NCBI GenBank assembly: GCA_943735955.1
Contig: CALSEQ010000041.1
Span: 148,501-212,500 of the forward strand
Length of the DNA stretch: 64,000 nucleotides
Direction: 5' to 3'
Source of the DNA: Piscicola geometra
Taxonomy: Eukaryota > Annelida > Clitellata > Hirudinida > Piscicolidae
Shown in pieces: positions 699 to 64,000 of the stretch (position 1 is its first letter; every line of letters starts with the position of its first letter). Below the pieces are notes generated by a model. The model saw only the letters and a program-made list of their open reading frames with translations. It was not told the DNA's origin and ran no database searches. A program made the translations under genes and the position numbers.

Positions 699-707
699 AA
701 ACACCGC

Positions 708-3388: not shown

Positions 3389-4940
3389 CTGGTATAAGCA
3401 CTCAATTACATTTTAATGGGTATAAGCACTCAATTACATTTTAATGGGTATAAGCACTCAATTACATTTCAACTGGTATAAGCACTCAATTACATTTCAA
3501 CTGGTATAAGCACTCAATTACATTTCAATGGGTATAAGCACTCAATTACATTTCAACTGGTATAAGCACTCAATTACATTTCAACTGGTATAAGCACTCA
3601 ATTACATTTCAATGGGTATAAGCACTCAATTACATTTCAATGGGTATAAGCACTCAATTACATTTCAACTGGTATAAGCACTCAATTACATTTCAACTTG
3701 GTATAAGCACTCAATTACATTTCAACTGGTATAAGCACTCAATTACATTTTAACTGGTATAAGCACTCAATTACATTTTAATGGGTATAAGCACTCAATT
3801 ACATTTCAATGGGTATAAGCACTCAATTACATTTCAACTGGTATAAGCACTCAATTACATTTCAATGGGTATAAGCACTCAATTACATTTTAACTGGTAT
3901 AAGCACTCAATTACATTTCAATGGGTATAAGCACTCAATTACATTTCAATTGGTATAAGCACTCAATTACATTTCAATGGGTATAAGCACTCAATTACAT
4001 TTCAATGGGTATAAGCACTCAATTACATTTCAATGGGTATAAGCACTCAATTACATTTCAACTGGTATAAGCACTCAATTACATTTCAACTGGTATAAGC
4101 ACTCAATTACATTTCAACTGGTATAAGCACTCAATTACATTTCAATGGGTATAAGCACTCAATTACATTTCAATGGGTATAAGCACTCAATTACATTTCA
4201 ACTGGTATAAGCACTCAATTACATTTCAATGGGTATAAGCACTCAATTACATTTCAATGGGTATAAGCACTCAATTACATTTCAACTGGTATAAGCACTC
4301 AATTACATTTCAATGGGTATAAGCACTCAATTACATTTCAATGGGTATAAGCACTCAATTACATTTCAATGGGTATAAGCACTCAATTACATTTCAATGG
4401 GTATAAGCACTCAATTACATTTCAATGGGTATAAGCACTCAATTACATTTCAATGGGTATAAGCACTCAATTACATTTCAATGGGTATAAGCACTCAATT
4501 ACATTTTAACTGGTATAAGCACTCAATTACATTTCAATGGGTATAAGCACTCAATTACATTTCAATGGGTATAAGCACTCAATTACATTTCAATGGGTAT
4601 AAGCACTCAATTACATTTCAATGGGTATAAGCACTCAATTACATTTCAATGGGTGTAAGCACTCAATTACATTTTAATTGGTATAAGCACTCAATTACAT
4701 TTCAATGGGTATAAGCACTCAATTACATTTCAATGGGTATAAGCACTCAATTACATTTCAACTTGGTATAAGCACTCAATTACATTTCAACTGGTATAAG
4801 CACTCAATTACATTTCAATGGGTATAAGCACTCAATTACATTTCAATGGGTATAAGCACTCAATTACATTTCAACTGGTATAAGCACTCAATTACATTTC
4901 AATGGGTATAAGCACTCAATTACATTTCAATGGGTATAAG

Positions 4941-4949
4941 CACCCAATT
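4941..4949. repeat. Marker CACCCAATT, cassette copy 1
   Basis: This monomer has CACCC in place of CACTC and is followed by one TGGG monomer and then a TTGG monomer. The same three-monomer context occurs at 12489, 18549, 39084 and 44891. A sixth CACCC monomer, near 8980, has a different context (followed by CTGG) and looks independent. Confidence 0.85.
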
Positions 4950-7900: not shown

Positions 7901-10900
7901 AATGGGTATAAGCACTCAATTACATTTCAATGGGTATAAGCACTCAATTACATTTTAACTGGTATAAGCACTCAATTACATTTCAATGGGTATAAGCACT
8001 CAATTACATTTCAATGGGTATAAGCACTCAATTACATTTCAACTGGTATAAGCACTCACTTACATTTCAATGGGTATAAGCACTCAATTACATTTCAATG
8101 GGTATAAGCACTCAATTACATTTCAATGGGTATAAGCACTCAATTACATTTCAACTTGGTATAAGCACTCAATTACATTTCAATTGGTATAAGCACTCAA
8201 TTACATTTCAATGGGTATAAGCACTCAATTACATTTCAATGGGTATAAGCACTCAATTACATTTCAATGGGTATAAGCACTCAATTACATTTCAATGGGT
8301 ATAAGCACTCAATTACATTTCAACTTGGTATAAGCACTCAATTACATTTCAACTGGTATAAGCACTCAATTACATTTCAACTGGTATAAGCACTCAATTA
8401 CATTTCAACTTGGTATAAGCACTCAATTACATTTCAATGGGTATAAGCACTCAATTACATTTCAATGGGTATAGGCACTCAATTACATTTCAACTGGTAT
8501 AAGCACTCAATTACATTTCAACTGGTATAAGCACTCAATTACATTTCAATGGGTATAAGCACTCAATTACATTTCAATGGGTATAAGCACTCAATTACAT
8601 TTCAATGGGTATAAGCACTCAATTACATTTCAACTGGTATAAGCACTCAATTACATTTCAATGGGTATAAGCACTCAATTACATTTCAATGGGTATAAGC
8701 ACTCAATTACATTTCAACTGGTATAAGCACTCAATTACATTTCAATGGGTATAAGCACTCAATTACATTTCAACTGGTATAAGCACTCAATTACATTTCA
8801 ACTGGTATAAGCACTCAATTACATTTCAACTGGTATAAGCACTCAATTACATTTCAACTGGTATAAGCACTCAATTACATTTCAACTGGTATAAGCACTC
8901 AATTACATTTTAATGGGTATAAGCACTCAATTACATTTCAACTGGTATAAGCACTCAATTACATTTCAATGGGTATAAGCACCCAATTACATTTCAACTG
9001 GTATAAGCACTCAATTACATTTCAACTGGTATAAGCACTCAATTACATTTCAATGGGTATAAGCACTCAATTACATTTCAACTGGTATAAGCACTCAATT
9101 ACATTTCAATGGGTAAAAGCACTCAATTACATTTCAATGGGTATAAGCACTCAATTACATTTCAATGGGTATAAGCACTCAATTACATTTCAATGGGTAT
9201 AAGCACTCAATTACATTTTAATTGGTATAAGCACTCAATTACATTTCAATGGGTATAAGCACTCAATTACATTTCAATGGGTATAAGCACTCAATTACAT
9301 TTCAACTTGGTATAAGCACTCAATTACATTTCAACTGGTATAAGCACTCAATTACATTTCAATGGGTATAAGCACTCAATTACATTTCAATGGGTATAAG
9401 CACTCAATTACATTTCAATGGGTATAAGCACTCAATTACATTTCAATGGGTATAAGCACTCAATTACATTTCAATTGGTATAAGCACTCAATTACATTTC
9501 AACTTGGTATAAGCACTCAATTACATTTCAATGGGTATAAGCACTCAATTACATTTCAATGGGTATAAGCACTCAATTACATTTCAACTTGGTATAAGCA
9601 CTCAATTACATTTCAATGGGTATAAGCACTCAATTACATTTCAATGGGTATAAGCACTCAATTACATTTCAATGGGTATAAGCACTCAATTACATTTCAA
9701 CTGGTATAAGCACTCAATTACATTTCAACTGGTATAAGCACTCAATTACATTTCAACTGGTATAAGCACTCAATTACATTTCAACTGGTATAAGCACTCA
9801 ATTACATTTCAATGGGTATAAGCACTCAATTACATTTCAACTGGTATAAGCACTCAATTACATTTCAACTGGTATAAGCACTCAATTACATTTCAATGGG
9901 TATAAGCACTCAATTACATTTTAATGGGTATAAGCACTCAATTACATTTCAATGGGTATAAGCACTCAATTACATTTCAATGGGTATAAGCACTCAATTA
10001 CATTTCAATGGGTATAAGCACTCAATTACATTTCAATGGGTATAAGCACTCAATTACATTTCAATGGGTATAAGCACTCAATTACATTTCAATGGGTATA
10101 AGCACTCAATTACATTTCAATGGGTATAAGCACTCAATTACATTTCAATGGGTATAAGCACTCAATTACATTTCAACTTGGTATAAGCACTCAATTACAT
10201 TTCAATGGGTATAAGCACTCAATTACATTTCAACTGGTATAAGCACTCAATTACATTTCAACTGGTATAAGCACTCAATTACATTTCAATGGGTATAAGC
10301 ACTCAATTACATTTCAATGGGTATAAGCACTCAATTACATTTCAATGGGTATAAGCACTCAATTACATTTCAATGGGTATAAGCACTCAATTACATTTTA
10401 ACTGGTATAAGCACTCAATTACATTTCAATGGGTATAAGCACTCAATTACATTTCAATTGGTATAAGCACTCAATTACATTTTAATGGGTATAAGCACTC
10501 AATTACATTTTAATGGGTATAAGCACTCAATTACATTTCAACTGGTATAAGCACTCAATTACATTTCAACTGGTATAAGCACTCAATTACATTTCAATGG
10601 GTATAAGCACTCAATTACATTTCAACTGGTATAAGCACTCAATTACATTTCAACTGGTATAAGCACTCAATTACATTTCAATGGGTATAAGCACTCAATT
10701 ACATTTCAACTGGTATAAGCACTCAATTACATTTCAACTTGGTATAAGCACTCAATTACATTTCAACTGGTATAAGCACTCAATTACATTTTAACTGGTA
10801 TAAGCACTCAATTACATTTTAATGGGTATAAGCACTCAATTACATTTCAATGGGTATAAGCACTCAATTACATTTCAACTGGTATAAGCACTCAATTACA

Positions 10901-13900
10901 TTTCAATGGGTATAAGCACTCAATTACATTTCAACTGGTATAAGCACTCAATTACATTTCAATGGGTATAAGCACTCAATTACATTTCAACTTGGTATAA
11001 GCACTCAATTACATTTCAACTGGTATAAGCACTCAATTACATTTCAATGGGTATAAGCACTCAATTACATTTCAATGGGTATAAGCACTCAATTACATTT
11101 CAATGGGTATAAGCACTCAATTACATTTCAACTTGGTATAAGCACTCAATTACATTTCAACTGGTATAAGCACTCAATTACATTTCAATGGGTATAAGCA
11201 CTCAATTACATTTCAACTGGTATAAGCACTCAATTACATTTCAATGGGTATAAGCACTCAATTACATTTCAATGGGTATAAGCACTCAATTACATTTTAA
11301 CTGGTATAAGCACTCAATTACATTTCAATGGGTATAAGCACTCAATTACATTTCAATTGGTATAAGCACTCAATTACATTTCAATGGGTATAAGCACTCA
11401 ATTACATTTCAATGGGTATAAGCACTCAATTACATTTCAATGGGTATAAGCACTCAATTACATTTCAACTGGTATAAGCACTCAATTACATTTCAACTGG
11501 TATAAGCACTCAATTACATTTCAACTGGTATAAGCACTCAATTACATTTCAATGGGTATAAGCACTCAATTACATTTCAATGGGTATAAGCACTCAATTA
11601 CATTTCAACTGGTATAAGCACTCAATTACATTTCAATGGGTATAAGCACTCAATTACATTTCAATGGGTATAAGCACTCAATTACATTTCAACTGGTATA
11701 AGCACTCAATTACATTTCAATGGGTATAAGCACTCAATTACATTTCAATGGGTATAAGCACTCAATTACATTTCAATGGGTATAAGCACTCAATTACATT
11801 TCAATGGGTATAAGCACTCAATTACATTTCAATGGGTATAAGCACTCAATTACATTTCAATGGGTATAAGCACTCAATTACATTTCAATGGGTATAAGCA
11901 CTCAATTACATTTCAATGGGTATAAGCACTCAATTACATTTTAACTGGTATAAGCACTCAATTACATTTCAATGGGTATAAGCACTCAATTACATTTCAA
12001 TGGGTATAAGCACTCAATTACATTTCAATGGGTATAAGCACTCAATTACATTTCAATGGGTATAAGCACTCAATTACATTTCAATGGGTATAAGCACTCA
12101 ATTACATTTTAATTGGTATAAGCACTCAATTACATTTTAATGGGTATAAGCACTCAATTACATTTCAATGGGTATAAGCACTCAATTACATTTCAATGGG
12201 TATAAGCACTCAATTACATTTCAATGGGTATAAGCACTCAATTACATTTCAATGGGTATAAGCACTCAATTACATTTCAATGGGTATAAGCACTCAATTA
12301 CATTTCAACTTGGTATAAGCACTCAATTACATTTCAACTGGTATAAGCACTCAATTACATTTCAATGGGTATAAGCACTCAATTACATTTCAATGGGTAT
12401 AAGCACTCAATTACATTTCAACTGGTATAAGCACTCAATTACATTTCAATGGGTATAAGCACTCAATTACATTTCAATGGGTATAAGCACCCAATTACAT
12501 TTCAATGGGTATAAGCACTCAATTACATTTCAATTGGTATAAGCACTCAATTACATTTCAATGGGTATAAGCACTCAATTACATTTCAATGGGTATAAGC
12601 ACTCAATTACATTTCAATGGGTATAAGCACTCAATTACATTTCAATGGGTATAAGCACTCAATTACATTTCAACTTGGTATAAGCACTCAATTACATTTC
12701 AATGGGTATAAGCACTCAATTACATTTCAATGGGTATAAGCACTCAATTACATTTCAATGGGTATAAGCACTCAATTACATTTCAATGGGTATAAGCACT
12801 CAATTACATTTCAATGGGTATAAGCACTCAATTACATTTTAACTGGTATAAGCACTCAATTACATTTCAATGGGTATAAGCACTCAATTACATTTCAATG
12901 GGTATAAGCACTCAATTACATTTCAATGGGTATATGCACTCAATTACATTTCAATGGGTATAAGCACTCAATTACATTTCAATGGGTATAAGCACTCAAT
13001 TACATTTTAATTGGTATAAGCACTCAATTACATTTCAATGGGTATAAGCACTCAATTACATTTCAATGGGTATAAGCACTCAATTACATTTCAACTTGGT
13101 ATAAGCACTCAATTACATTTCAACTGGTATAAGCACTCAATTACATTTCAACTGGTATAAGCACTCAATTACATTTCAACTTGGTATAAGCACTCAATTA
13201 CATTTCAATGGGTATAAGCACTCAATTACATTTCAATGGGTATAAGCACTCAATTACATTTCAATGGGTATAAGCACTCAATTACATTTCAACTGGTATA
13301 AGCACTCAATTACATTTCAATGGGTATAAGCACTCAATTACATTTCAACTGGTATAAGCACTCAATTACATTTCAACTGGTATAAGCACTCAATTACATT
13401 TCAATGGGTATAAGCACTCAATTACATTTCAACTGGTATAAGCACTCAATTACATTTCAATGGGTATAAGCACTCAATTACATTTCAACTGGTATAAGCA
13501 CTCAATTACATTTCAACTTGGTATAAGCACTCAATTACATTTCAATGGGTATAAGCACTCAATTACATTTCAACTGGTATAAGCACTCAATTACATTTCA
13601 ATGGGTATAAGCACTCAATTACATTTCAATGGGTATAAGCACTCAATTACATTTCAACTGGTATAAGCACTCAATTACATTTCAATGGGTATAAGCACTC
13701 AATTACATTTCAACTGGTATAAGCACTCAATTACATTTCAACTGGTATAAGCACTCAATTACATTTCAACTTGGTATAAGCACTCAATTACATTTCAACT
13801 GGTATAAGCACTCAATTACATTTCAACTGGTATAAGCACTCAATTACATTTCAATGGGTATAAGCACTCAATTACATTTCAATGGGTATAAGCACTCAAT

Positions 13901-16900
13901 TACATTTCAATGGGTATAAGCACTCAATTACATTTCAATGGGTATAAGCACTCAATTACATTTTAATTGGTATAAGCACTCAATTACATTTTAATGGGTA
14001 TAAGCACTCAATTACATTTCAATGGGTATAAGCACTCAATTACATTTCAATGGGTATAAGCACTCAATTACATTTCAACTGGTATAAGCACTCAATTACA
14101 TTTCAATGGGTATAAGCACTCAATTACATTTCAATGGGTATAAGCACTCAATTACATTTCAATGGGTATAAGCACTCAATTACATTTCAACTTGGTATAA
14201 GCACTCAATTACATTTCAACTGGTATAAGCACTCAATTACATTTCAATGGGTATAAGCACTCAATTACATTTCAATGGGTATAAGCACTCAATTACATTT
14301 CAACTGGTATAAGCACTCAATTACATTTCAATGGGTATAAGCACTCAATTACATTTCAATGGGTATAAGCACTCAATTACATTTCAATGGGTATAAGCAC
14401 TCAATTACATTTCAATGGGTATAAGCACTCAATTACATTTCAATGGGTATAAGCACTCAATTACATTTCAATGGGTATAAGCACTCAATTACATTTCAAC
14501 TGGTATAAGCACTCAATTACATTTCAACTGGTATAAGCACTCAATTACATTTCAATGGGTATAAGCACTCAATTACATTTCAATGGGTATAAGCACTCAA
14601 TTACATTTCAATGGGTATAAGCACTCAATTACATTTCAATGGGTATAAGCACTCAATTACATTTCAATGGGTATAAGCACTCAATTACATTTCAATGGGT
14701 ATAAGCACTCAATTACATTTCAACTGGTATAAGCACTCAATTACATTTCAATGGGTATAAGCACTCAATTACATTTCAATGGGTATAAGCACTCAATTAC
14801 ATTTCAATGGGTATAAGCACTCAATTACATTTCAACTGGTATAAGCACTCAATTACATTTCAATGGGTATAAGCACTCAATTACATTTCAATGGGTATAA
14901 GCACTCAATTACATTTCAATGGGTATAAGCACTCAATTACATTTCAATGGGTATAAGCACTCAATTACATTTCAATGGGTATAAGCACTCAATTACATTT
15001 CAATGGGTATAAGCACTCAATTACATTTCAATGGGTATAAGCACTCAATTACATTTCAATGGGTATAAGCACTCAATTACATTTCAATGGGTATAAGCAC
15101 TCAATTACATTTCAACTGGTATAAGCACTCAATTACATTTCAATGGGTATAAGCACTCAATTACATTTCAATGGGTATAAGCACTCAATTACATTTCAAC
15201 TGGTATAAGCACTCAATTACATTTCAACTGGTATAAGCACTCAATTACATTTCAACTTGGTATAAGCACTCAATTACATTTCAATGGGTATAAGCACTCA
15301 ATTACATTTCAACTGGTATAAGCACTCAATTACATTTCAATGGGTATAAGCACTCAATTACATTTCAACTGGTATAAGCACTCAATTACATTTCAACTGG
15401 TATAAGCACTCAATTACATTTCAACTGGTATAAGCACTCAATTACATTTCAATGGGTATAAGCACTCAATTACATTTCAATGGGTATAAGCACTCAATTA
15501 CATTTCAATGGGTATAAGCACTCAATTACATTTCAATGGGTATAAGCACTCAATTACATTTCAATGGGTATAAGCACTCAATTACATTTCAACTGGTATA
15601 AGCACTCAATTACATTTCAACTGGTATAAGCACTCAATTACATTTCAATGGGTATAAGCACTCAATTACATTTCAATGGGTATAAGCACTCAATTACATT
15701 TCAATGGGTATAAGCACTCAATTACATTTCAATGGGTATAAGCACTCAATTACATTTTAATTGGTATAAGCACTCAATTACATTTCAATGGGTATAAGCA
15801 CTCAATTACATTTCAATGGGTATAAGCACTCAATTACATTTCAACTTGGTATAAGCACTCAATTACATTTCAACTGGTATAAGCACTCAATTACATTTCA
15901 ATGGGTATAAGCACTCAATTACATTTCAACTGGTATAAGCACTCAATTACATTTCAACTTGGTATAAGCACTCAATTACATTTCAATGGGTATAAGCACT
16001 CAATTACATTTCAATGGGTATAAGCACTCAATTACATTTCAACTGGTATAAGCACTCAATTACATTTCAATGGGTATAAGCACTCAATTACATTTCAATG
16101 GGTATAAGCACTCAATTACATTTCAACTGGTATAAGCACTCAATTACATTTCAATGGGTATAAGCACTCAATTACATTTCAACTGGTATAAGCACTCAAT
16201 TACATTTCAATGGGTATAAGCACTCAATTACATTTCAATGGGTATAAGCACTCAATTACATTTCAATGGGTATAAGCACTCAATTACATTTCAACTGGTA
16301 TAAGCACTCAATTACATTTCAACTGGTATAAGCACTCAATTACATTTCAACTGGTATAAGCACTCAATTACATTTCAACTGGTATAAACACTCAATTACA
16401 TTTCAACTGGTATAAGCACTCAATTACATTTCAATGGGTATAAGCACTCAATTACATTTCAACTGGTATAAGCACTCAATTACATTTCAACTGGTATAAG
16501 CACTCAATTACATTTCAATGGGTATAAGCACTCAATTACATTTTAATGGGTATAAGCACTCAATTACATTTCAATGGGTATAAGCACTCAATTACATTTC
16601 AATGGGTATAAGCACTCAATTACATTTCAATGGGTATAAGCACTCAATTACATTTCAATGGGTATAAGCACTCAATTACATTTCAATGGGTATAAGCACT
16701 CAATTACATTTCAATGGGTATAAGCACTCAATTACATTTCAATGGGTATAAGCACTCAATTACATTTCAATGGGTATAAGCACTCAATTACATTTCAATG
16801 GGTATAAGCACTCAATTACATTTCAATGGGTATAAGCACTCAATTACATTTCAACTTGGTATAAGCACTCAATTACATTTCAATGGGTATAAGCACTCAA

Positions 16901-19900
16901 TTACATTTCAACTGGTATAAGCACTCAATTACATTTCAACTGGTATAAGCACTCAATTACATTTCAATGGGTATAAGCACTCAATTACATTTCAATGGGT
17001 ATAAGCACTCAATTACATTTTAATGGGTATAAGCACTCAATTACATTTCAACTGGTATAAGCACTCAATTACATTTCAACTGGTATAAGCACTCAATTAC
17101 ATTTCAATGGGTATAAGCACTCAATTACATTTCAACTGGTATAAGCACTCAATTACATTTCAACTGGTATAAGCACTCAATTACATTTCAATGGGTATAA
17201 GCACTCAATTACATTTCAATGGGTATAAGCACTCAATTACATTTCAACTGGTATAAGCACTCAATTACATTTCAACTTGGTATAAGCACTCAATTACATT
17301 TCAATGGGTATAAGCACTCAATTACATTTCAATGGGTATAAGCACTCAATTACATTTCAATGGGTATAAGCACTCAATTACATTTCAACTTGGTATAAGC
17401 ACTCAATTACATTTCAACTGGTATAAGCACTCAATTACATTTCAATGGGTATAAGCACTCAATTACATTTCAATGGGTATAAGCACTCAATTACATTTTA
17501 ACTGGTATAAGCACTCAATTACATTTCAATGGGTATAAGCACTCAATTACATTTCAATTGGTATAAGCACTCAATTACATTTCAATGGGTATAAGCACTC
17601 AATTACATTTCAATGGGTATAAGCACTCAATTACATTTCAATGGGTATAAGCACTCAATTACATTTCAACTGGTATAAGCACTCAATTACATTTCAACTG
17701 GTATAAGCACTCAATTACATTTCAACTGGTATAAGCACTCAATTACATTTCAATGGGTATAAGCACTCAATTACATTTCAATGGGTATAAGCACTCAATT
17801 ACATTTCAACTGGTATAAGCACTCAATTACATTTCAATGGGTATAAGCACTCAATTACATTTCAATGGGTATAAGCACTCAATTACATTTCAACTGGTAT
17901 AAGCACTCAATTACATTTCAATGGGTATAAGCACTCAATTACATTTCAATGGGTATAAGCACTCAATTACATTTCAATGGGTATAAGCACTCAATTACAT
18001 TTCAATGGGTATAAGCACTCAATTACATTTCAATGGGTATAAGCACTCAATTACATTTCAATGGGTATAAGCACTCAATTACATTTCAATGGGTATAAGC
18101 ACTCAATTACATTTTAACTGGTATAAGCACTCAATTACATTTCAATGGGTATAAGCACTCAATTACATTTCAATGGGTATAAGCACTCAATTACATTTCA
18201 ATGGGTATAAGCACTCAATTACATTTCAATGGGTATAAGCACTCAATTACATTTCAATGGGTATAAGCACTCAATTACATTTTAATTGGTATAAGCACTC
18301 AATTACATTTCAATGGGTATAAGCACTCAATTACATTTCAATGGGTATAAGCACTCAATTACATTTCAACTTGGTATAAGCACTCAATTACATTTCAACT
18401 GGTATAAGCACTCAATTACATTTCAATGGGTATAAGCACTCAATTACATTTCAATGGGTATAAGCACTCAATTACATTTCAACTGGTATAAGCACTCAAT
18501 TACATTTCAATGGGTATAAGCACTCAATTACATTTCAATGGGTATAAGCACCCAATTACATTTCAATGGGTATAAGCACTCAATTACATTTCAATTGGTA
18601 TAAGCACTCAATTACATTTCAATGGGTATAAGCACTCAATTACATTTCAATGGGTATAAGCACTCAATTACATTTCAATGGGTATAAGCACTCAATTACA
18701 TTTCAATGGGTATAAGCACTCAATTACATTTCAACTTGGTATAAGCACTCAATTACATTTCAATGGGTATAAGCACTCAATTACATTTCAATGGGTATAA
18801 GCACTCAATTACATTTCAATGGGTATAAGCACTCAATTACATTTCAATGGGTATAAGCACTCAATTACATTTCAATGGGTATAAGCACTCAATTACATTT
18901 TAACTGGTATAAGCACTCAATTACATTTCAATGGGTATAAGCACTCAATTACATTTCAATGGGTATAAGCACTCAATTACATTTCAATGGGTATAAGCAC
19001 TCAATTACATTTCAATGGGTATAAGCACTCAATTACATTTCAATGGGTATAAGCACTCAATTACATTTTAATTGGTATAAGCACTCAATTACATTTCAAT
19101 GGGTATAAGCACTCAATTACATTTCAATGGGTATAAGCACTCAATTACATTTCAACTTGGTATAAGCACTCAATTACATTTCAACTGGTATAAGCACTCA
19201 ATTACATTTCAACTGGTATAAGCACTCAATTACATTTCAACTTGGTATAAGCACTCAATTACATTTCAATGGGTATAAGCACTCAATTACATTTCAATGG
19301 GTATAAGCACTCAATTACATTTCAATGGGTATAAGCACTCAATTACATTTCAACTGGTATAAGCACTCAATTACATTTCAATGGGTATAAGCACTCAATT
19401 ACATTTCAACTGGTATAAGCACTCAATTACATTTCAACTGGTATAAGCACTCAATTACATTTCAATGGGTATAAGCACTCAATTACATTTCAACTGGTAT
19501 AAGCACTCAATTACATTTCAATGGGTATAAGCACTCAATTACATTTCAACTGGTATAAGCACTCAATTACATTTCAACTTGGTATAAGCACTCAATTACA
19601 TTTCAATGGGTATAAGCACTCAATTACATTTCAATGGGTATAAGCACTCAATTACATTTCAATGGGTATAAGCACTCAATTACATTTCAATGGGTATAAG
19701 CACTCAATTACATTTCAATGGGTATAAGCACTCAATTACATTTCAATGGGTATAAGCACTCAATTACATTTCAACTGGTATAAGCACTCAATTACATTTC
19801 AATGGGTATAAGCACTCAATTACATTTCAACTGGTATAAGCACTCAATTACATTTCAACTGGTATAAGCACTCAATTACATTTCAACTGGTATAAGCACT

Positions 19901-47100: not shown

Positions 47101-50100
47101 TATAAGCACTCAATTACATTTCAACTGGTATAATCACTCAATTACATTTCAACTGGTATAAGCACTCAATTACATTTCAATGGGTATAAGCACTCAATTA
47201 CATTTCAACTGGTATAAGCACTCAATTACATTTCAACTGGTATAAGCACTCAATTACATTTCAATGGGTATAAGCACTCAATTACATTTCAATGGGTATA
47301 AGCACTCAATTACATTTCAATGGGTATAAGCACTCAATTACATTTCAATGGGTATAAGCACTCAATTACATTTCAATGGGTATAAGCACTCAATTACATT
47401 TCAATGGGTATAAGCACTCAATTACATTTCAACTGGTATAAGCACTCAATTACATTTCAATGGGTATAAGCACTCAATTACATTTCAATGGGTATAAGCA
47501 CTCAATTACATTTCAATGGGTATAAGCACTCAATTACATTTTAATGGGTATAAGCACTCAATTACATTTCAATGGGTATAAGCACTCAATTACATTTCAA
47601 TGGGTATAAGCACTCAATTACATTTCAATGGGTATAAGCACTCAATTACATTTCAATGGGTATAAGCACTCAATTACATTTCAATGGGTATAAGCACTCA
47701 ATTACATTTCAATGGGTATAAGCACTCAATTACATTTCAACTGGTATAAGCACTCAATTACATTTCAACTTGGTATAAGCACTCAATTACATTTCAATGG
47801 GTATAAGCACTCAATTACATTTCAATGGGTATAAGCACTCAATTACATTTCAATGGGTATAAGCACTCAATTACATTTTAATGGGTATAAGCACTCAATT
47901 ACATTTCAATGGGTATAAGCACTCAATTACATTTCAATGGGTATAAGCACTCAATTACATTTCAATGGGTATAAGCACTCAATTACATTTCAATGGGTAT
48001 AAGCACTCAATTACATTTCAATGGGTATAAGCACTCAATTACATTTCAATGGGTATAAGCACTCAATTACATTTCAATGGGTATAAGCACTCAATTACAT
48101 TTCAATGGGTATAAGCACTCAATTACATTTCAATTGGTATAAGCACTCAATTACATTTCAATGGGTATAAGCACTCAATTACATTTCAATGGGTATAAGC
48201 ACTCAATTACATTTCAATGGGTATAAGCACTCAATTACATTTCAATGGGTATAAGCACTCAATTACATTTCAATGGGTATAAGCACTCAATTACATTTTA
48301 ATTGGTATAAGCACTCAATTACATTTCAATGGGTATAAGCACTCAATTACATTTCAATGGGTATAAGCACTCAATTACATTTTAATTGGTATAAGCACTC
48401 AATTACATTTCAACTGGTATAAGCACTCAATTACATTTCAACTGGTATAAGCACTCAATTACATTTCAATGGGTATAAGCACTCAATTACATTTCAATGG
48501 GTATAAGCACTCAATTACATTTCAATGGGTATAAGCACTCAATTACATTTCAATGGGTATAAGCACTCAATTACATTTCAACTGGTATAAGCACTCAATT
48601 ACATTTCAATGGGTATAAGCACTCAATTACATTTCAATGGGTATAAGCACTCAATTACATTTTAATTGGTATAAGCACTCAATTACATTTCAATGGGTAT
48701 AAGCACTCAATTACATTTCAACTGGTATAAGCACTCAATTACATTTCAACTGGTATAAGCACTCAATTACATTTCAACTGGTATAAGCACTCAATTACAT
48801 TTCAATGGGTATAAGCACTCAATTACATTTCAATGGGTATAAGCACTCAATTACATTTCAATGGGTATAAGCACTCAATTACATTTCAATGGGTATAAGC
48901 ACTCAATTACATTTCAATGGGTATAAGCACTCAATTACATTTCAATGGGTATAAGCACTCAATTACATTTCAATGGGTATAAGCACTCAATTACATTTCA
49001 ACTGGTATAAGCACTCAATTACATTTCAATGGGTATAAGCACTCAATTACATTTCAATGGGTATAAGCACTCAATTACATTTCAATGGGTATAAGCACTC
49101 AATTACATTTCAATTGGTATAAGCACTCAATTACATTTCAATGGGTATAAGCACTCAATTACATTTCAATGGGTATAAGCACTCAATTACATTTCAATGG
49201 GTATAAGCACTCAATTACATTTCAATGGGTATAAGCACTCACTTACATTTCAATTGGTATAAGCACTCAATTACATTTCAATTGGTATAAGCACTCAATT
49301 ACATTTCAATGGGTATAAGCACTCAATTACATTTCAATGGGTATAAGCACTCAATTACATTTCAATGGGTATAAGCACTCAATTACATTTCAATGGGTAT
49401 AAGCACTCAATTACATTTCAACTGGTATAAGCACTCAATTACATTTCAATGGGTATAAGCACTCAATTACATTTCAATGGGTATAAGCACTCAATTACAT
49501 TTCAACTGGTATAAGCACTCAATTACATTTCAATGGGTATAAGCACTCAATTACATTTCAATGGGTATAAGCACTCAATTACATTTCAACTTGGTATAAG
49601 CACTCAATTACATTTCAACTGGTATAAGCACTCAATTACATTTCAATGGGTATAAGCACTCAATTACATTTCAATGGGTATAAGCACTCAATTACATTTC
49701 AATGGGTATAAGCACTCAATTACATTTCAATGGGTATAAGCACTCAATTACATTTCAACTGGTATAAGCACTCAATTACATTTCAATGGGTATAAGCACT
49801 CAATTACATTTCAACTGGTATAAGCACTCAATTACATTTCAATGGGTATAAGCACTCAATTACATTTCAATGGGTATAAGCACTCAATTACATTTCAATG
49901 GGTATAAGCACTCAATTACATTTCAATGGGTATAAGCACTCAATTACATTTCAATGGGTATAAGCACTCAATTACATTTCAATGGGTATAAGCACTCAAT
50001 TACATTTCAATGGGTATAAGCACTCAATTACATTTCAATGGGTATAAGCACTCAATTACATTTCAATGGGTATAAGCACTCAATTACATTTCAACTGGTA

Positions 50101-53100
50101 TAAGCACTCAATTACATTTCAATGGGTATAAGCACTCAATTACATTTCAACTGGTATAAGCACTCAATTACATTTCAATGGGTATAAGCACTCAATTACA
50201 TTTCAATGGGTATAAGCACTCAATTACATTTCAATGGGTATAAGCACTCAATTACATTTCAATGGGTATAAGCACTCAATTACATTTCAATGGGTATAAG
50301 CACTCAATTACATTTCAATGGGTATAAGCACTCAATTACATTTCAACTGGTATAAGCACTCAATTACATTTCAATGGGTATAAGCACTCAATTACATTTC
50401 AACTGGTATAAGCACTCAATTACATTTCAATGGGTATAAGCACTCAATTACATTTCAACTGGTATAAGCACTCAATTACATTTCAACTTGGTATAAGCAC
50501 TCAATTACATTTCAACTGGTATAAGCACTCAATTACATTTCAACTGGTATAAGCACTCAATTACATTTCAACTTGGTATAAGCACTCAATTACATTTCAA
50601 TGGGTATAAGCACTCAATTACATTTCAACTGGTATAAGCACTCAATTACATTTCAATGGGTATAAGCACTCAATTACATTTCAATGGGTATAAGCACTCA
50701 ATTACATTTCAATGGGTATAAGCACTCAATTACATTTCAATGGGTATAAGCACTCAATTACATTTCAATGGGTATAAGCACTCAATTACATTTCAACTGG
50801 TATAAGCACTCAATTACATTTTAATGGGTATAAGCACTCAATTACATTTCAACTGGTATAAGCACTCAATTACATTTCAACTGGTATAAGCACTCAATTA
50901 CATTTCAACTGGTATAAGCACTCAATTACATTTCAATGGGTATAAGCACTCAATTACATTTCAATGGGTATAAGCACTCAATTACATTTCAACTGGTATA
51001 AGCACTCAATTACATTTCAATGGGTATAAGCACTCAATTACATTTCAATGGGTATAAGCACTCAATTACATTTCAATGGGTATAAGCACTCAATTACATT
51101 TCAATGGGTATAAGCACTCAATTACATTTCAATGGGTATAAGCACTCAATTACATTTCAATGGGTATAAGCACTCAATTACATTTCAACTGGTATAAGCA
51201 CTCAATTACATTTCAATGGGTATAAGCACTCAATTACATTTCAACTGGTATAAGCACTCAATTACATTTCAACTGGTATAAGCACTCAATTACATTTCAA
51301 CTGGTATAAGCACTCAATTACATTTCAACTGGTATAAGCACTCAATTACATTTCAACTGGTATAAGCACTCAATTACATTTCAACTGGTATAAGCACTCA
51401 ATTACATTTCAATGGGTATAAGCACTCAATTACATTTCAATGGGTATAAGCACTCAATTACATTTCAATGGGTATAAGCACTCAATTACATTTCAACTTG
51501 GTATAAGCACTCAATTACATTTCAATGGGTATAAGCACTCAATTACATTTCAATGGGTATAAGCACTCAATTACATTTCAATGGGTATAAGCACTCAATT
51601 ACATTTCAACTTGGTATAAGCACTCAATTACATTTCAATGGGTATAAGCACTCAATTACATTTCAATGGGTATAAGCACTCAATTACATTTCAATGGGTA
51701 TAAGCACTCAATTACATTTCAATGGGTATAAGCACTCAATTACATTTTAATGGGTATAAGCACTCAATTACATTTCAATGGGTATAAGCACTCAATTACA
51801 TTTCAATGGGTATAAGCACTCAATTACATTTCAATGGGTATAAGCACTCAATTACATTTCAACTTGGTATAAGCACTCAATTACATTTCAATTGGTATAA
51901 GCACTCAATTACATTTCAACTGGTATAAGCACTCAATTACATTTCAATGGGTATAAGCACTCAATTACATTTCAATGGGTATAAGCACTCAATTACATTT
52001 CAATGGGTATAAGCACTCAATTACATTTCAATGGGTATAAGCACTCAATTACATTTCAATGGGTATAAGCACTCAATTACATTTCAATGGGTATAAGCAC
52101 TCAATTACATTTCAACTGGTATAAGCACTCAATTACATTTTAATGGGTATAAGCACTCAATTACATTTCAATGGGTATAAGCACTCAATTACATTTCAAC
52201 TGGTATAAGCACTCAATTACATTTCAATGGGTATAAGCACTCAATTACATTTCAATTGGTATAAGCACTCAATTACATTTCAATGGGTATAAGCACTCAA
52301 TTACATTTCAATTGGTATAAGCACTCAATTACATTTCAATGGGTATAAGCACTCAATTACATTTCAATTGGTATAAGCACTCAATTACATTTTAATGGGT
52401 ATAAGCACTCAATTACATTTCAATGGGTATAAGCACTCAATTACATTTCAATGGGTATAAGCACTCAATTACATTTCAATGGGTATAAGCACTCAATTAC
52501 ATTTCAACTGGTATAAGCACTCAATTACATTTCAATTGGTATAAGCACTCAATTACATTTCAACTGGTATAAGCACTCAATTACATTTTAATTGGTATAA
52601 GCACTCAATTACATTTCAATGGGTATAAGCACTCAATTACATTTCAATGGGTATAAGCACTCAATTACATTTCAACTTGGTATAAGCACTCAATTACATT
52701 TCAACTGGTATAAGCACTCAATTACATTTCAATTGGTATAAGCACTCAATTACATTTTAACTGGTATAAGCACTCAATTACATTTCAATTGGTATAAGCA
52801 CTCAATTACATTTCAACTGGTATAAGCACTCAATTACATTTCAATGGGTATAAGCACTCAATTACATTTCAATGGGTATAAGCACTCAATTACATTTCAA
52901 TGGGTATAAGCACTCAATTACATTTCAATGGGTATAAGCACTCAATTACATTTCAACTGGTATAAGCACTCAATTACATTTCAACTGGTATAAGCACTCA
53001 ATTACATTTCAACTGGTATAAGCACTCAATTACATTTCAATGGGTATAAGCACTCAATTACATTTCAATTGGTATAAGCACTCAATTACATTTTAATTGG

Positions 53101-56100
53101 TATAAGCACTCAATTACATTTCAATGGGTATAAGCACTCAATTACATTTCAATGGGTATAAGCACTCAATTACATTTCAATGGGTATAAGCACTCAATTA
53201 CATTTCAATGGGTATAAGCACTCAATTACATTTCAATGGGTATAAGCACTCAATTACATTTCAATGGGTATAAGCACTCAATTACATTTCAATGGGTATA
53301 AGCACTCAATTACATTTCAATGGGTATAAGCACTCAATTACATTTCAATGGGTATAAGCACTCAATTACATTTCAATGGGTATAAGCACTCAATTACATT
53401 TCAATGGGTATAAGCACTCAATTACATTTCAATGGGTATAAGCACTCAATTACATTTCAACTGGTATAAGCACTCAATTACATTTCAACTGGTATAAGCA
53501 CTCAATTACATTTTAATGGGTATAAGCACTCAATTACATTTCAATGGGTATAAGCACTCAATTACATTTTAATGGGTATAAGCACTCAATTACATTTCAA
53601 CTGGTATAAGCACTCAATTACATTTCAATTGGTATAAGCACTCAATTACATTTTAACTGGTATAAGCACTCAATTACATTTTAATGGGTATAAGCACTCA
53701 ATTACATTTCAATGGGTATAAGCACTCAATTACATTTCAACTGGTATAAGCACTCAATTACATTTTAATGGGTATAAGCACTCAATTACATTTCAACTTG
53801 GTATAAGCACTCAATTACATTTCAATGGGTATAAGCACTCAATTACATTTCAATGGGTATAAGCACTCAATTACATTTCAATGGGTATAAGCACTCAATT
53901 ACATTTCAATGGGTATAAGCACTCAATTACATTTCAACTTGGTATAAGCACTCAATTACATTTCAACTGGTATAAGCACTCAATTACATTTCAATGGGTA
54001 TAAGCACTCAATTACATTTCAATGGGTATAAGCACTCAATTACATTTTAATGGGTATAAGCACTCAATTACATTTCAACTGGTATAAGCACTCAATTACA
54101 TTTCAACTGGTATAAGCACTCAATTACATTTCAATGGGTATAAGCACTCAATTACATTTCAATTGGTATAAGCACTCAATTACATTTCAATGGGTATAAG
54201 CACTCAATTACATTTTAATGGGTATAAGCACTCAATTACATTTCAACTGGTATAAGCACTCAATTACATTTCAACTGGTATAAGCACTCAATTACATTTC
54301 AATGGGTATAAGCACTCAATTACATTTCAATGGGTATAAGCACTCAATTACATTTCAATGGGTATAAGCACTCAATTACATTTCAATGGGTATAAGCACT
54401 CAATTACATTTCAACTGGTATAAGCACTCAATTACATTTCAATGGGTATAAGCACTCAATTACATTTCAATGGGTATAAGCACTCAATTACATTTCAACT
54501 GGTATAAGCACTCAATTACATTTCAATGGGTATAAGCACTCAATTACATTTCAATGGGTATAAGCACTCAATTACATTTCAATGGGTATAAGCACTCAAT
54601 TACATTTCAACTTGGTATAAGCACTCAATTACATTTCAATGGGTATAAGCACTCAATTACATTTCAACTTGGTATAAGCACTCAATTACATTTCAACTGG
54701 TATAAGCACTCAATTACATTTCAATGGGTATAAGCACTCAATTACATTTCAATGGGTATAAGCACTCAATTACATTTCAATGGGTATAAGCACTCAATTA
54801 CATTTCAATGGGTATAAGCACTCAATTACATTTCAATGGGTATAAGCACTCAATTACATTTTAATGGGTATAAGCACTCAATTACATTTTAACTGGTATA
54901 AGCACTCAATTACATTTCAATGGGTATAAGCACTCAATTACATTTCAATGGGTATAAGCACTCAATTACATTTCAATGGGTATAAGCACTCAATTACATT
55001 TCAATGGGTATAAGCACTCAATTACATTTCAATGGGTATAAGCACTCAATTACATTTCAATGGGTATAAGCACTCAATTACATTTCAATGGGTATAAGCA
55101 CTCAATTACATTTCAACTGGTATAAGCACTCAATTACATTTCAACTGGTATAAGCACTCAATTACATTTTAACTGGTATAAGCACTCAATTACATTTCAA
55201 CTGGTATAAGCACTCAATTACATTTCAACTGGTATAAGCACTCAATTACATTTCAATGGGTATAAGCACTCAATTACATTTCAACTGGTATAAGCACTCA
55301 ATTACATTTCAATGGGTATAAGCACTCAATTACATTTCAATGGGTATAAGCACTCAATTACATTTCAACTTGGTATAAGCACTCAATTACATTTCAATGG
55401 GTATAAGCACTCAATTACATTTCAACTGGTATAAGCACTCAATTACATTTCAACTGGTATAAGCACTCAATTACATTTCAATGGGTATAAGCACTCAATT
55501 ACATTTCAATGGGTATAAGCACTCAATTACATTTCAACTGGTATAAGCACTCAATTACATTTCAACTGGTATAAGCACTCAATTACATTTCAATGGGTAT
55601 AAGCACTCAATTACATTTCAATGGGTATAAGCACTCAATTACATTTCAATGGGTATAAGCACTCAATTACATTTCAATGGGTATAAGCACTCAATTACAT
55701 TTCAACTGGTATAAGCACTCAATTACATTTCAATGGGTATAAGCACTCAATTACATTTCAATGGGTATAAGCACTCAATTACATTTCAATGGGTATAAGC
55801 ACTCAATTACATTTCAATGGGTATAAGCACTCAATTACATTTCAATGGGTATAAGCACTCAATTACATTTCAATGGGTATAAGCACTCAATTACATTTTA
55901 ATTGGTATAAGCACTCAATTACATTTCAATGGGTATAAGCACTCAATTACATTTTAATGGGTATAAGCACTCAATTACATTTCAATTGGTATAAGCACTC
56001 AATTACATTTCAACTTGGTATAAGCACTCAATTACATTTCAACTGGTATAAGCACTCAATTACATTTCAATGGGTATAAGCACTCAATTACATTTCAATG

Positions 56101-59100
56101 GGTATAAGCACTCAATTACATTTCAATGGGTATAAGCACTCAATTACATTTCAATGGGTATAAGCACTCAATTACATTTCAATGGGTATAAGCACTCAAT
56201 TACATTTCAATGGGTATAAGCACTCAATTACATTTCAATGGGTATAAGCACTCAATTACATTTCAACTGGTATAAGCACTCAATTACATTTCAATGGGTA
56301 TAAGCACTCAATTACATTTCAACTGGTATAAGCACTCAATTACATTTCAATGGGTATAAGCACTCAATTACATTTCAATGGGTATAAGCACTCAATTACA
56401 TTTCAATGGGTATAAGCACTCAATTACATTTCAATGGGTATAAGCACTCAATTACATTTCAACTGGTATAAGCACTCAATTACATTTCAATGGGTATAAG
56501 CACTCAATTACATTTCAATGGGTATAAGCACTCAATTACATTTCAACTGGTATAAGCACTCAATTACATTTCAATGGGTATAAGCACTCAATTACATTTC
56601 AATGGGTATAAGCACTCAATTACATTTCAATGGGTATAAGCACTCAATTACATTTCAATGGGTATAAGCACTCAATTACATTTCAACTTGGTATAAGCAC
56701 TCAATTACATTTTAACTGGTATAAGCACTCAATTACATTTCAACTGGTATAAGCACTCAATTACATTTCAATGGGTATAAGCACTCAATTACATTTCAAT
56801 GGGTATAAGCACTCAATTACATTTCAATGGGTATAAGCACTCAATTACATTTCAACTGGTATAAGCACTCAATTACATTTCAATGGGTATAAGCACTCAA
56901 TTACATTTCAATGGGTATAAGCACTCAATTACATTTCAATGGGTATAAGCACTCACTTACATTTCAATGGGTATAAGCACTCAATTACATTTCAATGGGT
57001 ATAAGCACTCAATTACATTTCAATGGGTATAAGCACTCAATTACATTTCAATTGGTATAAGCACTCAATTACATTTCAATGGGTATAAGCACTCAATTAC
57101 ATTTCAACTGGTATAAGCACTCAATTACATTTCAATGGGTATAAGCACTCAATTACATTTCAATGGGTATAAGCACTCAATTACATTTCAACTGGTATAA
57201 GCACTCAATTACATTTCAATGGGTATAAGCACTCAATTACATTTCAACTTGGTATAAGCACTCAATTACATTTCAATGGGTATAAGCACTCAATTACATT
57301 TCAACTGGTATAAGCACTCACTTACATTTCAATTGGTATAAGCACTCAATTACATTTCAATTGGTATAAGCACTCAATTACATTTCAATGGGTATAAGCA
57401 CTCAATTACATTTCAATGGGTATAAGCACTCAATTACATTTCAATGGGTATAAGCACTCAATTACATTTCAACTGGTATAAGCACTCAATTACATTTCAA
57501 TGGGTATAAGCACTCAATTACATTTCAACTGGTATAAGCACTCAATTACATTTCAATGGGTATAAGCACTCAATTACATTTCAATTGGTATAAGCACTCA
57601 ATTACATTTCAATTGGTATAAGCACTCAATTACATTTCAATGGGTATAAGCACTCAATTACATTTTAATGGGTATAAGCACTCAATTACATTTCAATGGG
57701 TATAAGCACTCAATTACATTTCAACTGGTATAAGCACTCAATTACATTTCAATGGGTATAAGCACTCAATTACATTTCAACTGGTATAAGCACTCAATTA
57801 CATTTCAATGGGTATAAGCACTCAATTACATTTCAACTGGTATAAGCACTCAATTACATTTCAATGGGTATAAGCACTCAATTACATTTTAATGGGTATA
57901 AGCACTCAATTACATTTCAACTGGTATAAGCACTCAATTACATTTCAATGGGTATAAGCACTCAATTACATTTCAACTGGTATAAGCACTCAATTACATT
58001 TCAATGGGTATAAGCACTCAATTACATTTTAATGGGTATAAGCACTCAATTACATTTCAACTGGTATAAGCACTCAATTACATTTCAATGGGTATAAGCA
58101 CTCAATTACATTTCAATGGGTATAAGCACTCAATTACATTTCAACTGGTATAAGCACTCAATTACATTTCAATGGGTATAAGCACTCAATTACATTTCAA
58201 TGGGTATAAGCACTCAATTACATTTCAATGGGTATAAGCACTCAATTACATTTCAATGGGTATAAGCACTCAATTACATTTCAATGGGTATAAGCACTCA
58301 ATTACATTTCAATGGGTATAAGCACTCAATTACATTTCAATGGGTATAAGCACTCAATTACATTTCAACTGGTATAAGCACTCAATTACATTTTAATGGG
58401 TATAAGCACTCAATTACATTTCAATGGGTATAAGCACTCAATTACATTTTAATGGGTATAAGCACTCAATTACATTTCAACTGGTATAAGCACTCAATTA
58501 CATTTCAATTGGTATAAGCACTCAATTACATTTTAATGGGTATAAGCACTCAATTACATTTCAATGGGTATAAGCACTCAATTACATTTCAATGGGTATA
58601 AGCACTCAATTACATTTCAATGGGTATAAGCACTCAATTACATTTCAACTTGGTATAAGCACTCAATTACATTTCAACTGGTATAAGCACTCAATTACAT
58701 TTCAATTGGTATAAGCACTCAATTACATTTCAATGGGTATAAGCACTCAATTACATTTCAACTGGTATAAGCACTCAATTACATTTTAATTGGTATAAGC
58801 ACTCAATTACATTTCAATGGGTATAAGCACTCAATTACATTTCAATGGGTATAAGCACTCAATTACATTTCAACTTGGTATAAGCACTCAATTACATTTC
58901 AACTGGTATAAGCACTCAATTACATTTCAATTGGTATAAGCACTCAATTACATTTTAACTGGTATAAGCACTCAATTACATTTCAATTGGTATAAGCACT
59001 CAATTACATTTCAACTGGTATAAGCACTCAATTACATTTCAATGGGTATAAGCACTCAATTACATTTCAACTTGGTATAAGCACTCAATTACATTTCAAT

Positions 59101-60800
59101 TGGTATAAGCACTCAATTACATTTCAACTGGTATAAGCACTCAATTACATTTCAACTGGTATAAGCACTCAATTACATTTCAATGGGTATAAGCACTCAA
59201 TTACATTTCAATGGGTATAAGCACTCAATTACATTTCAATGGGTATAAGCACTCAATTACATTTCAATGGGTATAAGCACTCAATTACATTTCAACTTGG
59301 TATAAGCACTCAATTACATTTCAACTGGTATAAGCACTCAATTACATTTCAATGGGTATAAGCACTCAATTACATTTCAATGGGTATAAGCACTCAATTA
59401 CATTTCAATGGGTATAAGCACTCAATTACATTTCAACTGGTATAAGCACTCAATTACATTTTAATGGGTATAAGCACTCAATTACATTTCAATGGGTATA
59501 AGCACTCAATTACATTTCAATTGGTATAAGCACTCAATTACATTTCAACTTGGTATAAGCACTCAATTACATTTTAATGGGTATAAGCACTCAATTACAT
59601 TTCAATGGGTATAAGCACTCAATTACATTTCAATGGGTATAAGCACTCAATTACATTTCAACTGGTATAAGCACTCAATTACATTTCAATGGGTATAAGC
59701 ACTCAATTACATTTCAATGGGTATAAGCACTCAATTACATTTCAACTGGTATAAGCACTCAATTACATTTCAACTGGTATAAGCACTCAATTACATTTCA
59801 ATGGGTATAAGCACTCAATTACATTTCAATGGGTATAAGCACTCAATTACATTTCAATGGGTATAAGCACTCAATTACATTTCAACTTGGTATAAGCACT
59901 CAATTACATTTCAACTGGTATAAGCACTCAATTACATTTCAATGGGTATAAGCACTCAATTACATTTCAATGGGTATAAGCACTCAATTACATTTCAACT
60001 TGGTATAAGCACTCAATTACATTTCAACTGGTATAAGCACTCAATTACATTTCAATGGGTATAAGCACTCAATTACATTTCAATGGGTATAAGCACTCAA
60101 TTACATTTCAATTGGTATAAGCACTCAATTACATTTCAACTTGGTATAAGCACTCAATTACATTTTAATGGGTATAAGCACTCAATTACATTTCAATGGG
60201 TATAAGCACTCAATTACATTTCAATGGGTATAAGCACTCAATTACATTTCAACTGGTATAAGCACTCAATTACATTTCAATGGGTATAAGCACTCAATTA
60301 CATTTCAATGGGTATAAGCACTCAATTACATTTCAATGGGTATAAGCACTCAATTACATTTCAATGGGTATAAGCACTCAATTACATTTCAACTGGTATA
60401 AGCACTCAATTACATTTCAACTGGTATAAGCACTCAATTACATTTCAATGGGTATAAGCACTCAATTACATTTCAACTTGGTATAAGCACTCAATTACAT
60501 TTCAATGGGTATAAGCACTCAATTACATTTCAATGGGTATAAGCACTCAATTACATTTCAATGGGTATAAGCACTCAATTACATTTCAATGGGTATAAGC
60601 ACTCAATTACATTTCAATTGGTATAAGCACTCAATTACATTTCAATGGGTATAAGCACTCAATTACATTTCAATGGGTATAAGCACTCAATTACATTTCA
60701 ATGGGTATAAGCACTCAATTACATTTCAACTTGGTATAAGCACTCAATTACATTTCAATGGGTATAAGCACTCAATTACATTTCAACTGGTATAAGCACT
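35200..60800. repeat. Super-block copy 2, containing an extra 5,807-bp duplication
   Basis: This stretch repeats the linker barcode of 15.2-34.9 kb. It is longer mainly because 37.16-42.7 kb is duplicated internally. It lacks the 1,120-bp tandem unit and an extra 112 bp present in copy 1, and differs by further gains or losses of whole monomers (for example 11 monomers between 25.8 and 26.8 kb against 52.9 and 53.6 kb). Confidence 0.7.
37160..48520. repeat. 5,807-bp tandem duplication inside super-block copy 2
   Basis: Exact offset 5,807 holds at every anchor checked: 37440 with 43247, 37749 with 43556, 39084 with 44891, 39657 with 45464, 40818 with 46625, 41238 with 47045 and 42489 with 48296. 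No net indel across more than 5 kb means this copy event is recent, or that the two copies are kept identical. The match starts near 37,160/42,967 and ends near 42,700/48,510. Confidence 0.85.
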
Positions 60801-63800
60801 CAATTACATTTCAATGGGTATAAGCACTCAATTACATTTCAACTGGTATAAGCACTCAATTACATTTCAATGGGTATAAGCACTCAATTACATTTCAATG
60901 GGTATAAGCACTCAATTACATTTCAATTGGTATAAGCACTCAATTACATTTCAATGGGTATAAGCACTCAATTACATTTCAATGGGTATAAGCACTCAAT
61001 TACATTTTAATGGGTATAAGCACTCAATTACATTTCAATTGGTATAAGCACTCAATTACATTTCAATGGGTATAAGCACTCAATTACATTTCAATGGGTA
61101 TAAGCACTCAATTAAATTTCAATGGGTATAAGCACTCAATTACATTTCAACTGGTATAAGCACTCAATTACATTTCAATGGGTATAAGCACTCAATTACA
61201 TTTCAATGGGTATAAGCACTCAATTACATTTTAACTGGTATAAGCACTCAATTACATTTCAATGGGTATAAGCACTCAATTACATTTCAATGGGTATAAG
61301 CACTCAATTACATTTCAACTGGTATAAGCACTCAATTACATTTCAATGGGTATAAGCACTCAATTACATTTCAATTGGTATAAGCACTCAATTACATTTC
61401 AACTGGTATAAGCACTCAATTACATTTCAATGGGTATAAGCACTCAATTACATTTCAATGGGTATAAGCACTCAATTACATTTCAACTGGTATAAGCACT
61501 CAATTACATTTCAATTGGTATAAGCACTCAATTACATTTCAATGGGTATAAGCACTCAATTACATTTCAATGGGTATAAGCACTCAATTACATTTCAATG
61601 GGTATAAGCACTCAATTACATTTCAATTGGTATAAGCACTCAATTACATTTCAACTTGGTATAAGCACTCAATTACATTTTAATGGGTATAAGCACTCAA
61701 TTACATTTCAATGGGTATAAGCACTCAATTACATTTCAATGGGTATAAGCACTCAATTACATTTCAATGGGTATAAGCACTCAATTACATTTTAATGGGT
61801 ATAAGCACTCAATTACATTTCAATGGGTATAAGCACTCAATTACATTTCAATGGGTATAAGCACTCAATTACATTTCAATGGGTATAAGCACTCAATTAC
61901 ATTTCAATGGGTATAAGCACTCAATTACATTTCAATGGGTATAAGCACTCAATTACATTTCAATGGGTATAAGCACTCAATTACATTTCAATGGGTATAA
62001 GCACTCAATTACATTTCAATGGGTATAAGCACTCAATTACATTTCAATGGGTATAAGCACTCAATTACATTTCAATGGGTATAAGCACTCAATTACATTT
62101 CAATGGGTATAAGCACTCAATTACATTTCAACTGGTATAAGCACTCAATTACATTTCAATGGGTATAAGCACTCAATTACATTTCAATGGGTATAAGCAC
62201 TCAATTACATTTCAATGGGTATAAGCACTCAATTACATTTCAATGGGTATAAGCACTCAATTACATTTCAACTGGTATAAGCACTCAATTACATTTCAAC
62301 TGGTATAAGCACTCAATTACATTTCAATGGGTATAAGCACTCAATTACATTTCAACTTGGTATAAGCACTCAATTACATTTCAATGGGTATAAGCACTCA
62401 ATTACATTTCAATGGGTATAAGCACTCAATTACATTTCAATGGGTATAAGCACTCAATTACATTTCAATGGGTATAAGCACTCAATTACATTTCAATTGG
62501 TATAAGCACTCAATTACATTTCAATGGGTATAAGCACTCAATTACATTTCAATTGGTATAAGCACTCAATTACATTTCAATGGGTATAAGCACTCAATTA
62601 CATTTCAACTTGGTATAAGCACTCAATTACATTTCAATTGGTATAAGCACTCAATTACATTTCAATGGGTATAAGCACTCAATTACATTTCAATGGGTAT
62701 AAGCACTCAATTACATTTCAATGGGTATAAGCACTCAATTACATTTCAATGGGTATAAGCACTCAATTACATTTCAACTGGTATAAGCACTCAATTACAT
62801 TTCAATGGGTATAAGCACTCAATTACATTTCAATGGGTATAAGCACTCAATTACATTTCAATGGGTATAAGCACTCAATTACATTTCAATGGGTATAAGC
62901 ACTCAATTACATTTCAATTGGTATAAGCACTCAATTACATTTCAATGGGTATAAGCACTCAATTACATTTCAACTTGGTATAAGCACTCAATTACATTTC
63001 AATGGGTATAAGCACTCAATTACATTTCAATTGGTATAAGCACTCAATTACATTTCAATGGGTATAAGCACTCAATTACATTTCAACTTGGTATAAGCAC
63101 TCAATTACATTTCAATTGGTATAAGCACTCAATTACATTTCAATGGGTATAAGCACTCAATTACATTTCAATGGGTATAAGCACTCAATTACATTTCAAT
63201 GGGTATAAGCACTCAATTACATTTCAATGGGTATAAGCACTCAATTACATTTCAATGGGTATAAGCACTCAATTACATTTCAATGGGTATAAGCACTCAA
63301 TTACATTTCAATGGGTATAAGCACTCAATTACATTTCAATGGGTATAAGCACTCAATTACATTTCAATGGGTATAAGCACTCAATTACATTTCAATGGGT
63401 ATAAGCACTCAATTACATTTCAATGGGTATAAGCACTCAATTACATTTCAATTGGTATAAGCACTCAATTACATTTCAATGGGTATAAGCACTCAATTAC
63501 ATTTCAATGGGTATAAGCACTCAATTACATTTCAATGGGTATAAGCACTCAATTACATTTCAATGGGTATAAGCACTCAATTACATTTCAATGGGTATAA
63601 GCACTCAATTACATTTCAATGGGTATAAGCACTCAATTACATTTCAATGGGTATAAGCACTCAATTACATTTCAATGGGTATAAGCACTCAATTACATTT
63701 CAATGGGTATAAGCACTCAATTACATTTCAATGGGTATAAGCACTCAATTACATTTCAATGGGTATAAGCACTCAATTACATTTCAATGGGTATAAGCAC

Positions 63801-64000
63801 TCAATTACATTTCAATGGGTATAAGCACTCAATTACATTTCAATGGGTATAAGCACTCAATTACATTTCAATTGGTATAAGCACTCAATTACATTTCAAT
63901 GGGTATAAGCACTCAATTACATTTCAATGGGTATAAGCACTCAATTACATTTCAATGGGTATAAGCACTCAATTACATTTCAATGGGTATAAGCACTCAA

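Follow-up and report, generated by a model that had tools for sequence, protein, structure and literature searches.

Minisatellites, or VNTRs, are built from tandem units of roughly 10 to 60 bp. Classical satellite DNA with higher-order repeats runs head to tail over tens of kilobases, is homogenised and carries internal block duplications. Human MSY1 is a minisatellite that has been studied by variant-repeat mapping (MVR) (PMC2599865), and satellites that grew from short tandem arrays within retrotransposons have been described (PMC7004042). Here, we analyzed a window of 64,000 nucleotides (C55:148501-212500) from an assembly of 171,024,195 bases in 66 contigs, together with related sequences elsewhere in that assembly. 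We consider it likely that the array found on C55 is a young, non-coding minisatellite of the VNTR type, located at one locus and grown by unequal exchange.

3391..64000, plus strand: 28-bp minisatellite array, 2,160 monomers and a 15-base partial one, seen up to the window end.

A scan of the window gave 2,160 matches to the monomer core at 3391..63958, all head-to-tail, with the first complete unit beginning at 3391. The spacing between matches was 28 bases in 2,044 cases and 29 bases in 115, and neither an interruption nor a reverse copy was found among the 2,160 matches. The unit of 28 or 29 bp falls within the size range of minisatellites. The array was AT-rich, long and homogeneous: only 19 distinct monomers occurred among the 2,159 measured, and seven types made up 2,130 of these. 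The tail states were CAATG (1295 units), CAACT (507), CAACTT (115), CAATT (92), TAATG (80), TAACT (41) and TAATT (29), so that nearly all variation came from a C/T switch at position 24 and from the linker (AATG, AACT, AACTT or AATT). Nine rare core variants were found, six of them singletons, and these six were the only singletons of the array; no rare or new tail state was seen in the 2,159 units. The preliminary description had reported about 2,160 uninterrupted, non-inverted monomers over 60 kb, with variation mostly in the linker and at one C/T switch, and on both points our counts agree with it. Its statement that the core is almost invariant holds by copy number, since only 29 of 2,159 units depart, but not by site, since 7 of the 23 core sites vary and all six singletons fall there. 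The array continues up to the final base of the window, where 5,000 N begin (C55:212501-217500). This run starts and stops on 500-base boundaries and may thus represent withheld sequence and not an assembly gap; beyond it lies sequence with a reverse-transcriptase domain. An 812-base dispersed element with at least 32 other matches at 98-100% identity (40 of 752 candidates scored) overlaps a reverse-transcriptase frame and was apparently recently active.

The distribution of the monomer was then examined genome-wide. With an 18-mer of the core and one mismatch allowed, 2,173 forward matches and 1 reverse match were obtained; with a 25-mer and up to 3 mismatches, there were 2,173 forward and 2 reverse matches, and the controls gave 0. 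The forward 25-mer matches comprised 2,160 in the window, 12 that were units of a second array on C11 (at about 7,820,533-7,820,867), and one elsewhere. The C11 units were diverged, with core changes at 6 of 23 sites (G2A, T5C, A7G, T16A, A18G and A20G). Moreover, two of the units were only 27 bases long, one base of the T run being absent. Their tails included TAATG, TAATT and CAACTT, three of the seven states of the big array, and the frequent C11 variants sat at or beside the same unit junction as in C55. Each C11 flank matched itself alone in the genome and was thus single copy, and no element carrying the short array was found. The 25-mer search located no third array with this core in the 171-Mb assembly. 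The idea of a new satellite with genome-wide arrays, raised in the preliminary description, was not borne out, because one large and one 12-copy array were located in 171 Mb. Such a small number of loci is what is seen in minisatellites; many arrays across chromosomes, as in classical satellites, were not found in the assembly. In the assembled sequence, the 28-bp monomer is not a genome-wide family, and unassembled arrays are possible. The 18-mer gave three single bacterial matches in GTDB contigs, which we read as chance, and no match in viral contigs, and a literature search with substrings of the monomer did not find it in any of the papers covered. An origin from a transposon was considered and rejected: the C11 flanks are single copy, four copies of the C55 flank were read without an array, and the array was not found to lie inside a repeated mobile element.

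To examine the internal order of the units, the array was recoded as a string of monomer types and aligned with itself. The self-alignment revealed irregular duplicated blocks, including 5.5-kb blocks placed 5.8 kb apart and blocks of about 25 kb placed 26 kb apart. The top three block alignments scored 769, 329 and 317, while controls (3 shuffles and 3 Markov strings) scored at most 25.4. The main blocks were the following.

37139..42692, plus strand: block A of the youngest duplication, units 1204-1401.
42946..48499, plus strand: block B of the youngest duplication, units 1411-1608.
9591..34978, plus strand: older block, units 222-1126, aligned to units 1168-2047.
36130..60816, plus strand: partner of the older block, units 1168-2047.

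Blocks A and B aligned without gaps over 198 unit pairs at an offset of 5,807 bases and differed by one base. Units 222-1126 and 1168-2047 gave 779 unit pairs, 96.4% of the same type, with 45 unit gaps. A further pair, units 419-656 and 1131-1401, gave 234 pairs with one type different and seven unit gaps, 118 pairs were aligned between units 222-362 and 457-578, and units 1-61 also aligned with units 1202-1278. The order of types showed no strong higher-order period at lags 1-1499 (best identity, 0.467 versus 0.412 expected), and thus nothing like the regular multi-monomer period of a higher-order-repeat satellite. The identity at lag 1 was 0.444 versus 0.412 in shuffles (z 4.1), an excess consistent with slight local duplication. 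Variant repeats were interspersed along the array, as in minisatellites.

Part of this length or block structure could have been produced by the assembly, either as false block repeats or as haplotypes joined end to end. C55 is a small scaffold of 457 kb, and the array ends in N. In addition, C55:128501-149634 recurs piecewise and in the same direction at 231791-259980, with most long pieces 94-97% identical, so that C55 would consist either of large duplicons in tandem or of two haplotypes joined one after the other; the single base separating the two 5.5-kb blocks points in the same direction. On the other hand, the blocks are nested, unequal and irregularly overlapping, and they are set apart from each other by gained or lost units and by private variants. 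Moreover, the second flank copy on C55 was found without an adjoining array, and joining by itself does not create the array. We regard such an artefact as unlikely, although more credible than any of the other alternatives considered below, and it is compatible with a young minisatellite grown by unequal exchange. Window positions 1-1134 belong to the duplicated segment of C55, and neighbouring parts of this segment also recur on C36, C48, C62 and C17, the C17 copy lying about 18 kb from the contig end. C55 also carries an interstitial telomere-like (AACCCT)n stretch that has about 133 units and adjoins a 17-bp repeat. The telomere assembled at the start of C1 is very long, with pure AACCCT over at least 10 kb.

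Next, we asked whether the distribution of variants reflects constraint on the core, a mutational hotspot in the linker or the amplification of few founder types. Variable sites made up 7 of 23 in the core and 3 of 5 in the tail (Fisher p 0.32). That all six singletons fell in the core and none in the tail has a chance of 0.31 under even mutation. Four young block pairs, which share units and are therefore not independent, gave 491 unit pairs at least 3 units from a gap, with 3 core and 0 tail differences; without the gap margin, there were 611 pairs with 3 core differences and 1 tail difference. A fifth pair (65 unit pairs, one core and one tail difference), which overlaps the oldest pair, was omitted from this sum. 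For the oldest pair, the comparison covered the 415 unit pairs that lay 5 or more units from a gap; it gave differences at 2 of 9,545 core sites and in 8 tails (2,075 tail sites), an excess of about 18-fold per site in the tail (p 3e-5). This excess speaks against a purely even process. All eight tail differences involved already existing types, and unit conversion therefore explains them without new mutation; the excess is also compatible with a mutable linker or a constrained core.

We also simulated arrays from twelve founder units under even mutation and kept the runs with 6-13 new variants. This gave 45 runs; three mutation rates with 60 runs each contributed 34, 11 and 0 of them. No common core variant was present in 32 of the 45, which speaks for the founder account, but the five tail sites stayed free of new variants in only 6 of the 45, which speaks against it. 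Overall, a small set of founder types that unequal exchange amplified and conversion reshuffled fits better than constraint and is favoured, not proved. This account does not in itself explain why all common variants cluster in five bases.

A linker that acts as a mutational hotspot would place all common C55 states in those five bases and the frequent C11 variants at or beside the same junction, and it would agree with the 8 tail differences in the 415 oldest unit pairs. However, only seven tail states exist in total, the rarest is present in 29 copies, no new state appeared in 2,159 units, and the four young pairs showed 0 tail versus 3 core differences in 491 unit pairs. We consider such a hotspot improbable. 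A constrained 23-bp core, which might for instance bind a protein, with the linker alone free to vary, is about as improbable as the hotspot or slightly more so. In its favour are the near-invariance of the core when copies are counted, with departures in 29 of 2,159 units, and the higher per-site difference of the tail in the oldest block pair. Against it are the variable sites, 7 of 23 in the core versus 3 of 5 in the tail (Fisher p 0.32), the confinement of all singletons to the core, the changes at 6 core sites and the two 27-mers among the 12 units of C11, and the search that located no third array with this core. The preliminary description had put forward two ideas, a constrained core and the amplification of few founder types. 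Constraint finds little support, as the core varies in both arrays and the tail excess of the oldest pair alone fits it; the amplification of few founder types is strengthened by the three tail states shared with C11, the recognisable blocks, the singletons restricted to the core and the lack of rare tail states.

The left junction was then compared with related sequences elsewhere, with the following features.

1700..3388, plus strand: left flank, belonging to a duplicated segment that has at least nine near-full-length copies.
3355..3388, plus strand: 9-bp repeat TGGCAGTGG, 3.8 copies, adjoining the junction; fewer copies are present in the four empty sites read.
3389..3391, plus strand: CTG at the left junction; empty sites read GTCTG followed by AAAGG, and array units read AACTG followed by GTATAAG.
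2804..3412, minus strand: open frame that extends 22 bases into the array, with no match in Pfam.

The left flank has at least 8 other near-full-length copies that are 94-100% identical (rounded values; 40 of 2,325 candidates scored), located on C17, C36, C48 and C4, at three places on C62 and at another on C55. Four of them (C36, C17, C62 and C55:58318) were read at the join, and all were array-free at the same base; according to the genome-wide match count, there is no array at the remaining four joins either. The four empty sites contain GGTGGCAGTCTG, or its start in the 9-bp repeat, followed by AAAGGAGGAGG. At the join in the window, GGTGGCAGTCTG is followed by GTATAAGC, and array units read AACTGGTATAAG at the corresponding place, so that CTG is common to flank and array. 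We read this CTG as a 3-bp microhomology at the left join. The C55 pieces examined, from 217501 to 272500, did not contain the sequence that flanks the empty site on its right; the array may therefore have come to this place by a simple insertion or by a rearrangement. On the minus strand, the empty sites read CTCCTCCTTTCAG followed by ACTGCC at about position 3388, which resembles a 3' splice site. The open frame up to about this position is thus a possible exon, and because of the resemblance, a duplicated gene may harbour the array in one of its introns. A Pfam search with four frames of the flank gave sub-cut-off matches, to one frame, and named no family. Window positions 2137-2280 hold a dispersed repeat of about 145 bases with at least 31 genome matches at 92-96% identity among the matches listed.

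The three shared bases at the junction would also suit the insertion of a product of rolling-circle amplification from a small circle. Since the types show no strong period at lags 1-1499 and the blocks are nested and unequal, we judge this route very improbable. For the minisatellite grown by unequal exchange, the following course of events is proposed. A small number of units akin to those on C11 would have joined this flank copy at the shared 3 bp. The array would then have gained between one and several hundred units at a time, either through unequal sister-chromatid exchange or through replication slippage, and unit-to-unit conversion would have reshuffled the old linker types. The longest stop-free frame in the array had 65 codons; no open frame runs through the units, and a coding role was rejected. 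No hairpin better than those of shuffles was found (z 0.27 and 0.93). The array is probably without function and located in an intron or between genes; we take it to be most likely neutral because no sign of function was seen. A centromeric or other structural satellite, which a long, homogeneous and AT-rich array could suggest, is most improbable given one large array in the assembly and flanks that are duplicated, gene-like and retroelement-like. Equally far-fetched, in our estimate, is a unit junction that serves as the exchange site: a protein or recombinase would recognise the monomer and cut or switch template at the AA/GG linker, thereby both driving block growth and confining variation to the linker, and the array would be a self-expanding one, seen here shortly after its entry into one copy of a gene family.

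The genome is that of an animal: an actin exon was up to 98% identical to named animal actins, homeobox matches (150 scored of 279 candidates) and a labial-like Hox gene were found, and so was a piece of COI, read with code 5, whose best match with a species name, among at least 120 matches, was an Octopus vulgaris record at 81% identity. Long minisatellites are usual in this genome. Among 14 sampled 2-kb pieces from ten large contigs, 3 were tandem-rich (fractions of 0.49, 0.52 and 1.00), one of them being entirely a 24-bp array, and C55 itself opens with a 10-kb array of a 16-bp unit and closes in a 21-bp array. Other long minisatellite arrays seen in the genome have units of 16, 16 or 31, 21 and 24 bp. 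As an object, the C55 array is ordinary in a tandem-repeat-rich genome. As a worked case, it offers a very long minisatellite that can be read as a type string; because a short and diverged relative exists elsewhere, the paralogous sites are empty and the junction is known to the base, its birth order and block growth are open to testing.

The C55 array resembles classical higher-order satellites in length, head-to-tail order, homogenisation and block duplications, and differs from them in its lack of a regular higher-order period and in its single large locus. Like the retrotransposon-born satellites (PMC7004042), it pairs one expanded array with one short array elsewhere; unlike them, its short relative on C11 has single-copy flanks. 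The MSY1 array studied (PMC2599865) contains 77 repeats in ordered blocks, has no length-variant units and has a predicted hairpin, whereas the C55 array has 2,160 repeats with interspersed types, includes a 29-bp type and has no hairpin better than shuffles. MSY1 (PMC2599865) and the C55 array are alike in having an AT-rich unit of about 25-28 bp, few variant types that differ by base changes, a single locus, and an array that can be read as a string of types.
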